NCBI RefSeq assembly: GCF_021917145.1
Contig: NC_061060.1
Location: 11,882,366-11,946,365 of the forward strand
DNA from: Hypomesus transpacificus
Taxonomy: Eukaryota > Chordata > Actinopteri > Osmeriformes > Osmeridae
DNA length: 64,000 nt
Direction: 5' to 3'
The notes beneath the pieces were generated by a model that saw nothing but the letters and a program-made list of their open reading frames with translations, did no database searches and was not told the DNA's origin. Of this stretch, positions 22,901-26,583 are shown piece by piece; position 1 is the first letter of the stretch, and every line of letters begins with the position of its first letter. Both the position numbers and the translations under genes were made by a program.

Positions 22901-25900
22901 ATCGTCTGGTTGGACGGAGCTACGGGAGGGCGGGCCCGATCGTATGATCGGGGCGTCGCTTGTATGTGGAGGACGGGACTGACCAAACAGCTTCCGGAAG
23001 CAGTTGACCGGTGTCTCCAGGTTCTCCGAGGTCTCCGCCTCCAGTAGGGACTCTCCCAGATTGACCTGGGTACGGATCAGAATGTTTACAGTCCACTTTG
23101 GAGTTATGTGTTTGGATGTAGAGGTCAAAGGGCAAATGTGAGAAGGGGGAAAGACATTGATACAAGCAGATCGTGGCACTGTGTTCAAATGGATGGGAAG
23201 TGGTTGTGTACCCCGTGCTGGACCACAGAGTCTGGAAAACGCTTCAGCAGGAGCAGCAACATCTCTGCCTTTTCCAGGGTGTTTAAACACTGCTCAGTGG
23301 CCTTTAAGAGCATGTCACACTGCACGTGACCCGGGAGGGTTTCAAACAGACCTGCGAGACGCACACAAATACGCACGCCATTAAACGAGGACTTAAAAGG
23401 TCCCTGTTTGTTTGCTAACGCACTAGGAGTGTAGGTGTGTTAGGTCGGATGGACTCTCACACAACACGAGGTTACAGTGTTCACCTCGTAGGAACTGTGC
23501 ATGTTTGTCCTGACAATCGCTCCTTAAAGCTGCAGTGATGACACCAATCTCACGCCAGACAATGGGCTGGTCAGGAAAGTTGATAAACCTGAGACATTTG
23601 AGAAGATGGATAGTGAGACAGACTTATTTTTGAAATATGTATAAACATTTAAAAGGTATAGAAATGGGGCTCATAGGAGACTGGGTTATAGCCAGCTTTC
23701 ACTAACATGTCATACAACAGTCTGCCTGCTGAAGCAGTCTTCTCCGCATTCCGCTCAATAGTGTACATTTCATACTGAAAAACAAAACAGCGTCAAAGCT
23801 CAAACGGTCCCCCCACTATGGAAGCAAATCGTGACCAAAATTCAAATGAAAATGCATTTCCAGAAATGCATTTTCATTTTAAGAATGTGGCTGCATTATT
23901 TGACTCATAAATCAAATTAGTATTCAATCATCCTATTTGCATTTTCATTTTCTTCTTTAAGACTGCTCATTCTTTCCCTTAATTAAAATGAAAACGAAAA
24001 AGACATTTGAAATTTAATTTTCAAAATATGCCCCAGCAAATAGATACCAAAATTCAATTTGAAATGTAAAATTTGAAAATGAAAATGCATTTCCAGAAAT
24101 GCATTTTCATTTTAAGAACGTGGCTGCAAAATCGTGACCACAATTCAAATTCAAATGCATTTCCAGAATTGCATTTTCATTTTCAAGAACGTGGCTGCAA
24201 AATCGTGACCACAATTCAAATTCAAATGCATTTCCAGAAATGCATTTTCATTTTAAGAACGTGGCTGCAAAATCGTGACCACAATTCAAATTCAAATGTA
24301 TTTCCAGAAATGCATTTTCATTTTAAGAATGTGGCTGCATTATTTGACTCATAAATCAAATTAGTACTGATTAGTACTGAGCGGACATTGCATTTTCATT
24401 TTCATGTTCTGCCCGCAAAGAACTGCCCATAATTCGAAAACGAAAATGCATTCTGAGCGGCGCAGTAGAGTGACGTCAGTAGCCGCTCTTCTTCAGCTCC
24501 CTGCTGACCGAGCTACCCATCTTGTTCGGTAGGGGGCGGTGTGCACATACGCATTGCATTACATGACAAATGTGCCGGGAAATTGATTGAATTGCCGGGT
24601 CTTTAGAGGACGCATCACAGATCATGGCGCTCCCTCAAATTGTGCAGACACTGATAGAATTAGCTGAGCTGGTAGAAACTAATAATATATCTGAGTCTGA
24701 TGCCCGTGACCGAGTAGAACAAGTCACAGAGAGCTTGGCTGCATACTCTGCCGTCACAGACGTACACATTAATGAGGTTGCCATAGTAAACCTCTCTTCA
24801 GTCCTGGAACGGCTGGATGCTGTGGAGCCTCAAATGGGACGGGGACGACCAACCATCCACATCCCGTTCGAGTCCATCGAAAACTATTTATTAAATGGTT
24901 TAAAAATAAAGGACATAGCGGAGCTGTTGTCGGCCACCAGACCATCCGTCGGAGGATGCAAAGCAACGGATTTACGGAGCTAGAAAGCTGACAAAAGTAT
25001 CTGAATTTGAATATGAAAGATCTGAAATATTTGTGTCTCGAATTTCATAAAACTGAAATATATTGCTGTTGAATATATAATATCTGAATTATTTGTATGC
25101 CAAATTTAATACAACTGAATTATTTTGATCCAAAAATAAAACATTCTAAAATTCAGATTGCAGGAATTCAGATTCTTGAAATTCAGATTGCGGAAATTCA
25201 AATTCAGATTGCGGAAATTCAGATTTTGTCTGAACCAGGCCAAAGGTGAAACAGCTTGCTTTCACAGGAAAAAGTAGACCATTTAATAAATAGTTTTCGA
25301 TGGACTCGAACGGGATGTGGATGGTTGGTCGTCCCCGTCCCATTTGAGGCTCCACAGCATCCAGCCGTTCCAGGACTGAAGAGAGGTTTACTATGGCAAC
25401 CTCATTAATGTGTACGTCTGTGACGGCAGAGTATGCCGCCAAGCTCTCTGTGACTTGTTCTACTCGGTCACGGGCATCAGACTCAGATATATTATTAGTT
25501 TCTACCAGCTCAGCTAATTCTATCAGTGTCTGCACAATTTGAGGGAGCGCCATGATCTGTGATGCGTCCTCTAAAGACCCGGCAATTCAATCAATTTCCC
25601 GGCACATTTGTCATGTAATGCAATGCGTATGTGCACACCGCCCCCTACCGAACAAGATGGGTAGCTCGGTCAGCAGGGAGCTGAAGAAGAGCGGCTACTG
25701 ACGTCACTCTACTGCGCCGCTCAGAATGCATTTTCGTTTTCGAATTATGGGCAGTTCTTTGCGGGCAGAACATGAAAATGAAAATGCAATGTCCGCTCAG
25801 TACTAATCAGTACTAATTTGATTTATGAGTCAAATAATGCAGCCACATTCTTAAAATGAAAATGCATTTCTGGAAATACATTTGAATTTGAATTGTGGTC

Positions 25901-26583
25901 ACGATTTTGCAGCCACGTTCTTAAAATGAAAATGCATTTCTGGAAATGCATTTGAATTTGAATTGTGGTCACGATTTTGCAGCCACGTTCTTGAAAATGA
26001 AAATGCAATTCTGGAAATGCATTTGAATTTGAATTGTGGTCACGATTTTGCAGCCACGTTCTTAAAATGAAAATGCATTTCTGGAAATGCATTTTCATTT
26101 TCAAATTTTACATTTCAAATTGAATTTTGGTATCTATTTGCTGGGGCATATTTTGAAAATTAAATTTCAAATGTCTTTTTCGTTTTCATTTTAATTAAGG
26201 GAAAGAATGAGCAGTCTTAAAGAAGAAAATGAAAATGCAAATAGGATGATTGAATACTAATTTGATTTATGAGTCAAATAATGCAGCCACATTCTTAAAA
26301 TGAAAATGCATTTCTGGAAATGCATTTTCATTTGAATTTTGGTCACGATTTGCTTCCATACCCCACACTCAATTTGTAGCCAATTAAAATCTTTAACAAT
26401 AACGGTAATTATGTCAGTTAGCGTTAGCAACGTGTGGTACTTGGTTGTCGTTACCTGTATTTTGAAGTCAGTGGGGTAAAGCGTTCTCGCCGTTATGAGC
26501 CAAGCCTTGGCTGCACATGGGTCATCGGAGACAAGTTCTCTAGCCCTTTTCACAAGAAACTCACAATCTTTCTGGGCAGACAT
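17670..26583 (-). CDS. ints10: Integrator complex subunit 10
   Basis: Seventeen coding exons join in frame to 714 residues; human INTS10 has 710. Their positions are 26455-26583, 23707-23774, 23485-23588, 23212-23351, 22984-23065, 22712-22852, 22030-22207, 21716-21885, 21380-21519, 20704-20857, 20448-20530, 20019-20171, 19656-19764, 19391-19470, 19119-19281, 18870-18963 and 17670-17826. The start [20 protein letters not shown], the internal [16 protein letters not shown] and [20 protein letters not shown], and the C-terminal [16 protein letters not shown] match the vertebrate family almost residue for residue. INTS10 is a helical-repeat protein of the nuclear Integrator complex, which processes snRNA and attenuates RNA polymerase II transcription; it sits in the module with INTS13 and INTS14. 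All introns are GT-AG. Intron 1 (23775-26454) contains the palindromic transposon. Confidence 0.96.
18280..18440. repeat. G-rich tract in ints10 intron
   Basis: This strongly G-rich stretch includes a run of about 12 G near 18426-18437, in the intron between the last two ints10 exons. Open frames crossing it are low-complexity and not coding. Confidence 0.7.
19866..20010. repeat. (GT)n-rich compound microsatellite in ints10 intron
   Basis: GT tracts are interrupted by repeated GTCTAGGTCTGTCTGTG-type units, just downstream (minus sense) of the ints10 exon at 20019-20171. Confidence 0.85.
20190..20345. repeat. CA-rich minisatellite in ints10 intron
   Basis: About four to five tandem units of about 31-34 bases each contain TACACACATCAGG and ACACACACCTGCTG. 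They lie in the intron between the ints10 exons at 20019-20171 and 20448-20530. Units differ by a few substitutions. Confidence 0.85.
24079..24345 (+). repeat. About 71-bp subterminal tandem repeats, left arm
   Basis: About four tandem units each contain ATGCATTTCCAGAAATGCAT (itself a small inverted repeat), TTTTAAGAACGTGGCTGC and AAATCGTGACCACAATTC. Further related units lie at the very end of the arm (from 23840), and the mirror set lies at about 25832-26098 in the right arm. Such subterminal arrays are often transposase binding sites; that role is inferred here. Confidence 0.85.
24624..24983 (+). pseudogene. Transposase N-terminal fragment, left arm
   Basis: A 119-residue frame starts [20 protein letters not shown] and includes [18 protein letters not shown] followed by IKDIAELL. 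The latter resembles the helix-turn-helix found at the start of fish integrase-core (DDE-type) transposase-like proteins. It ends shortly after the arm boundary, and the continuation RRRMQSNGF, which would fit such a protein, is in another frame. No catalytic domain is present, so this is only the head of a transposase gene. The assignment rests on pattern memory and is uncertain. Confidence 0.6.
25146..25553 (-). pseudogene. Transposase N-terminal fragment, right arm
   Basis: This mirror copy of the left-arm frame has the same first 93 residues ([10 protein letters not shown] to YLLNGL). It then reads into centre sequence of short repeated [13 protein letters not shown] units. It lies in the same strand sense as ints10, inside intron 1. 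No catalytic region is present. Confidence 0.6.

Follow-up and report, generated by a model that had tools for sequence, protein, structure and literature searches.

The question raised by this locus is how one transposon end comes to occur twice, head against head, in a 2.5-kb element, and whether the mirror structure is real. The element is a palindromic jumping gene of 2,544 bp inside a fish intron, at positions 23817-26360 of the window (the whole 64,000-nucleotide stretch of Hypomesus transpacificus DNA that was analysed). No further copy was found within the window. The first-pass annotation had described two equal arms of 1,083 bp with one difference (24740 against 25437), flanked on each side by an exact CCCCAC. 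Base-by-base realignment gave the same arms, and the target site duplication (TSD) was present directly outside both ends, at 23811-23816 and 26361-26366. The left arm (23817-24899, + strand) begins with the terminus TATGG and, by arm alignment and homology to a locus on contig C19, represents the transposase-side end of an IS3EU-type element. The right arm (25278-26360, - strand) aligns as its inverted copy, with the terminus CCATA and one mismatch in 1,083 bp. A second arm mismatch stands at 24900/25277 and two further bases match beyond it, so the arm length reported by a repeat-finding tool is 1,086 bp, with two mismatches inside. The left-arm base at 24740/25437 is found in 48 of the 50 arms aligned from 25 copies, with one gap, and the sole deviant is the right arm in the window; being private among these arms, the base at 25437 is the derived one.

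Long, internally repetitive inverted arms, the hallmark of Foldback elements, make up most of the element (2 x 1,083 of 2,544 bp). The left arm contains a subterminal array of 70-bp tandem repeats (24083-24339, + strand; 3.7 units), mirrored in the right arm at 25838-26094 (- strand). A 119-aa ORF, the N-terminal exon of an rva_4 transposase, runs from the left arm into the spacer (24624-24983, + strand). The right arm encodes a 135-aa ORF (25146-25553, - strand) with the same N-terminus, whose agreement with the transposase stops where the arm meets the spacer. The spacer of approximately 372 bp is non-palindromic. In its first part (24900-24972, + strand) the transposase exon continues, as the C19 alignment crosses the arm boundary, and the remainder (24973-25277) is AT-rich filler with short internal repeats. 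The only match found for this filler, at the rva_4 locus L039, was weak and AT-rich.

The host intron is intron 1 of ints10 (23775-26454, - strand), 2,680 bp long with the element in place; the exons were checked, and the earlier placement of the insertion in this intron was right. By subtraction, the intron without the element and one duplication measures about 130 bp. The near duplication starts at a distance of approximately 36 bp from the exon 2 acceptor, close to where the branch point would lie. Elsewhere in the window, at 4446-4499, there is the 3′ element of a UnaL2 LINE (Rfam RF00436).

Copies were sought in the 437-Mb assembly that contains the window. The left-arm query returned 503 candidates, and the best 40 scored were all full-length rows of about 100% identity, from 32 loci. 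The spacer query returned 374, of which the best 40 scored were full-length rows at 99-100% identity. Merging the two lists gives at least 58 distinct loci with a near-identical arm or spacer, the window locus included, so the same-genome search that had been proposed did find further copies. Among the best 150 scored of 484 candidates for the ORF query, 122 rows had at least 96% identity and reached residue 114 or beyond; these represent at least 121 loci, one element giving two rows. The sequence was read at 27 loci and coordinates alone were used for the others, the sample being biased to the best scorers (mostly the best 40 of 503 and the best 40 of 374 candidates). Palindromes with both ends were present at 26 of the 27 loci; the other, L019, has a left end and a rearranged spacer, and the 10 kb read there contain no right end. 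All 26 two-ended copies are bounded by exact 6-bp TSDs, each different, that of the copy on C23 being AAGCTA. No clear target motif was apparent by eye across 25 insertion sites. At L023 (3859-4125 and 6521-9000), two left ends with an identical 12-bp flank are separated by about 2.7 kb, an arrangement that would result from a tandem duplication of the flank together with the element end.

These near-identical copies elsewhere in the genome indicate that the mirror structure belongs to a real and recently spread element and is not an assembly mistake. Long near-perfect palindromes are a known hazard for assembly, and two copies contain oddities that are perfectly mirrored, as would be produced if the second arm were a fold-back error. 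Against such an error, the flanks differ on the two sides and exact 6-bp TSDs enclose 26 of 26 two-ended copies. In addition, the non-palindromic spacer is 99-100% conserved in the best 40 of 374 candidates, and in other copies substitutions and indels of 56-303 bp distinguish the two arms. An artefactual second arm is hardly credible on this evidence, and for the family as a whole the differing flanks and exact TSDs effectively exclude it. The very recent, real insertion favoured by the first-pass annotation is supported by the many further copies, each of the 26 checked having its own exact TSD.

The near-identity of the arms could reflect either youth or continual homogenisation by gene conversion. 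Divergence was measured in the non-repetitive arm core of 23 copies, L030 and L031 being left out as deletions misalign them. Deviations from the column majority numbered 13 in 12,746 bases for left arms, which are mostly the score-selected ones, and 30 in 12,799 for right arms. In this core, 24 private substitutions occur in one arm only and none in both. Over the whole arms of 25 copies, 135 private substitutions lie in one arm (many of them from the misaligned L031) and three in both; ten more variants are shared between copies, six of which stand in both arms of some copies, as either subfamilies or copying would give. With all 25 copies, two of them misaligned, the mean arm-to-arm difference within a copy is 0.68%, versus 0.72% for left-right comparisons between copies, and the means among left arms and among right arms are 1.02% and 0.45%, respectively. 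Similar values within and between copies would be expected of a recent burst without homogenisation. The two arms of a copy are 0-14 substitutions apart.

Two copies carry a record of exchange between arms. In L032 (2,936 bp), a 191-bp MITE, presumably hAT-like, that ends in CAGGGGTG..CACCCCTG and is flanked by the exact 8-bp duplication CTGTGGAG occupies the mirror position in both arms, which show no differences over 1,279 bp. Of 1,283 candidates the best 40 were scored, and among these 40 only L032 combined the MITE with arm flanks. The right side of the C23 copy (4285582-4288342) repeats the left arm in inverted orientation, together with the initial 124 bp of spacer. This inverted block adjoins a 96-bp remnant of the former right arm, all within one exact 6-bp duplication. 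If their assembly is right, template copying from one arm to the other is the best reading of both oddities.

The mirrored MITE with its identical arms, the symmetric 124-bp extension, the three private substitutions found in both arms and the six two-armed shared variants are what continual homogenisation would produce. As the cause of the near-identity it is nevertheless very unlikely, given the private core substitutions (24 one-armed against no two-armed ones, without L030 and L031), gaps of at least 56 bp between the arms in 11 of 25 copies and the 14 arm differences in L027. Arm identity mainly reflects youth. Gene conversion, which had been put forward as an alternative, therefore fails as a general explanation on the one-armed private changes, and copying between arms stands for at least two copies.

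The assignment to a superfamily rests on the ends, the duplications and the ORF. The rva_4 domain is carried by IS3EU transposases. The termini are TATGG..CCATA in all 25 copies compared, and likewise in the one on C23; 24 of the 25 start with TATGGA, and L012 starts with TATGGC. Passages on IS3EU give TA..TA ends with TSDs that are usually 6 bp (PMC10045372), and for fungal families TAYGG..CCRTA termini (PMC12730594), and the element has both the ends and the duplications so described. Its ORF is likewise tied to an integrase-core (rva_4) gene, being the first exon of the rva_4-bearing gene at C19. The element differs from IS3EU in having the same transposase-side end twice, in its 1,083-bp arms and in encoding no DDE catalytic core. 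In Pfam, neither arm ORF gave a match above cut-off, the best being DUF5830 (E 0.074). The IS3EU passages concerned mention TIRs longer than 30 bp and not kilobase arms (PMC10045372, PMC12730594). By sequence, the termini, 6-bp duplications and rva_4-linked ORF would fit the IS3EU superfamily. Duplications of 6 bp are by themselves not unique to it, as they also occur in the Dada superfamily. They are described for Polinton as well (PMC10045372). Membership of one of these other superfamilies, with the exon homology being captured sequence, is highly improbable, since termini, duplications and rva_4-linked exon all agree with IS3EU. The window element is thus very probably one copy of a high-copy-number, very young and non-autonomous IS3EU foldback transposon.

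The origin of the duplicated end is indicated by the C19 locus. Its DNA is approximately 96% identical to element positions 599-1156, across the arm/spacer boundary to window position 24972. About 2 kb downstream of the ORF start, two exons on the same strand match rva_4 (Integrase core domain; E 9.3e-38 and 4.1e-27). This homology and these exons indicate that each arm corresponds to the 5′ end of an IS3EU-type transposase gene together with its first exon, so that the element holds this part of the gene in duplicate. The C19 version of the ORF gave in Pfam only helix-turn-helix matches below the cut-offs and other weak ones. Relative to C19, which is unshifted, the frame of the element ORF is lost within the helix-turn-helix, and the shift is common to the 121 loci as their matches run beyond the shift point. 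By coordinates, C365 has the same layout as C19. The 3′ regions of the two are 97% identical and are the only matches to that region, so the C19 relative may be low-copy or a settled gene.

To judge from its sequence, C19 is a gene relative and not a demonstrated donor. It is without the first 598 bp of the element, homology beginning at 599, and a forward-strand search of the 740 bp that precede L043, with up to 5 errors allowed, gave no matching terminus. That upstream stretch, L045/L046 (C19:14746560-14747299), includes a tandem duplication of about 460 bp ahead of the transposase exon, with 51 bp of arm homology (element 599-649) in both units. The 1.6 kb read on the 3′ side of the relative, short of its far end, contained no terminus and only weak AT-rich arm matches. 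This bears on the view that the autonomous element already had long ORF-bearing arms, in which case the palindrome would be the original state, from which only the middle has been lost. A nearly complete Galileo copy, as described in PMC4168063, provides a precedent, and at L039 a cluster of short inverted repeats lies upstream of the rva_4 exons; with no such arms in the 1.6 kb read beside the C19 relative, an ancestral palindrome is unlikely.

No intact donor with matching ends of the TATGGAAGC..GCTTCCATA type and rva_4 exons was recovered in the searches made. Candidates L033-L038 and L040 were rejected in the absence of a DNA match to the element, L041 with a best match of only E 0.57, and L039 with matches of 60-65% between AT-rich repeats only and no convincing termini. 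At L041:2723-7174, an rva_4 transposase locus is framed by TATGGCACGG and CCGTGCCATA ends at a distance of 4.45 kb; the 6 bp flanking these ends do not match. L040 contains a second palindromic element (7746-9124; 1,379 bp) with TACGG..CCGTA ends, an exact 6-bp duplication ACTAGG and long, slightly unequal arms, another IS3EU-like foldback.

A further observation concerns the neighbourhood of rva_4 transposases. Among 63 end-reaching HECT and 105 rva_4 matches listed, 28 HECT matches lie within 4 kb of rva_4 (0.13 expected under uniform placement), although these pairs are not all independent, five belonging to one C14 cluster and some others being apparent copies of one element. The two genes are convergent in 28 of 28 near pairs, and the HECT sequence, the C-terminal part of a ubiquitin ligase, is located 0.5-2.1 kb from the rva_4 exons; examples are L039:6294-6569 (-) and L042:1350-1601 (-). 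The other 35 of the 63 listed are far from listed rva_4, as host HECT genes would be. The HECT gene has the appearance of a regular second gene in IS3EU-type elements of fish. In fungal TET-bearing IS3EU families, an alpha-kinase gene is reported in the opposite orientation to the transposase (passage in PMC12730594), and the HECT ligase-like gene may, by analogy, be its fish counterpart. No text pairing the words HECT and IS3EU was found in the papers searched.

The most likely account is a non-autonomous foldback that arose when the transposase-side end was duplicated in inverted orientation, and that was moved by a transposase acting in trans. In the best explanation overall, held with high confidence, each end is made of a terminus, the 70-bp array, the 5′ region and the first exon of the transposase, and the two ends stand head to head around a short spacer. 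The first palindrome would have formed when an IS3EU-type element broke or its replication stalled, and one end was copied in inverted form by a template switch onto the opposite strand. With two identical functional ends, the unit could then be mobilised by transposase made elsewhere, which the duplications and uniform ends support. One founder would have spread recently, as the near-identical copies suggest. Array slippage and occasional re-copying of arms, of which footprints are seen, would have followed.

Among known systems, fish MITEs such as Angel are non-autonomous inverted-repeat elements of high copy number, from which the present element differs in its length of 2.5 kb and in having coding sequence in its arms. 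Among the titles and abstract openings listed from the open literature, Repbase and subscription journals aside, none reports an IS3EU foldback in fish. A close likeness is to Galileo of Drosophila, a Foldback-like element of the P-superfamily, with long arms that hold tandem repeats and a piece of transposase ORF, and with foreign TEs passed from one arm to the other. According to PMC4168063, tandem repeats of Galileo have expanded (for D. willistoni, just one copy shows this), its arms have taken up ORF sequence, one copy having gained over 500 bp, and foreign TEs that entered one arm came to lie in both; the authors term the recruitment of ORF sequence so far unique to Galileo. The tandem repeats of Galileo are reported (PMC3688188) to be repeated transposase-binding sites, and by analogy the 70-bp arrays may be multiple binding sites too. 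Galileo has a THAP transposase, 7-bp duplications and the end of the ORF in its arms, whereas the fish element has an rva_4-linked ORF, 6-bp duplications and the start of the ORF. The fish unit behaves similarly, yet with different superfamily marks it does not belong to Galileo.

Mu killer of maize, as portrayed in PMC3440606, likewise consists of terminal sequence and part of a transposase gene duplicated in inverted orientation. It silences MuDR from one locus; the fish unit is mobile, high-copy and known from DNA alone. By analogy with both systems, a vertebrate IS3EU lineage might on its own have turned into a Galileo-like foldback, its arms mutually rewritten during mobility (as with the mirrored MITE and the copied spacer sequence), that is also a mobile Mu-killer-like source of dsRNA against its donor, a combination entertained with little confidence. 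The dsRNA would come from the two transposase 5′ ends facing each other and, if real, would explain why no intact donor with the element's ends was recovered. The copies are young enough for single arm-copying events to be still legible, which makes the formation and extension of foldback arms directly testable. Long palindromes of this kind are suggested to be able to spread to very many sites, and kilobase foldbacks with coding arms, detailed for Galileo, are suggested in another superfamily and in fish.
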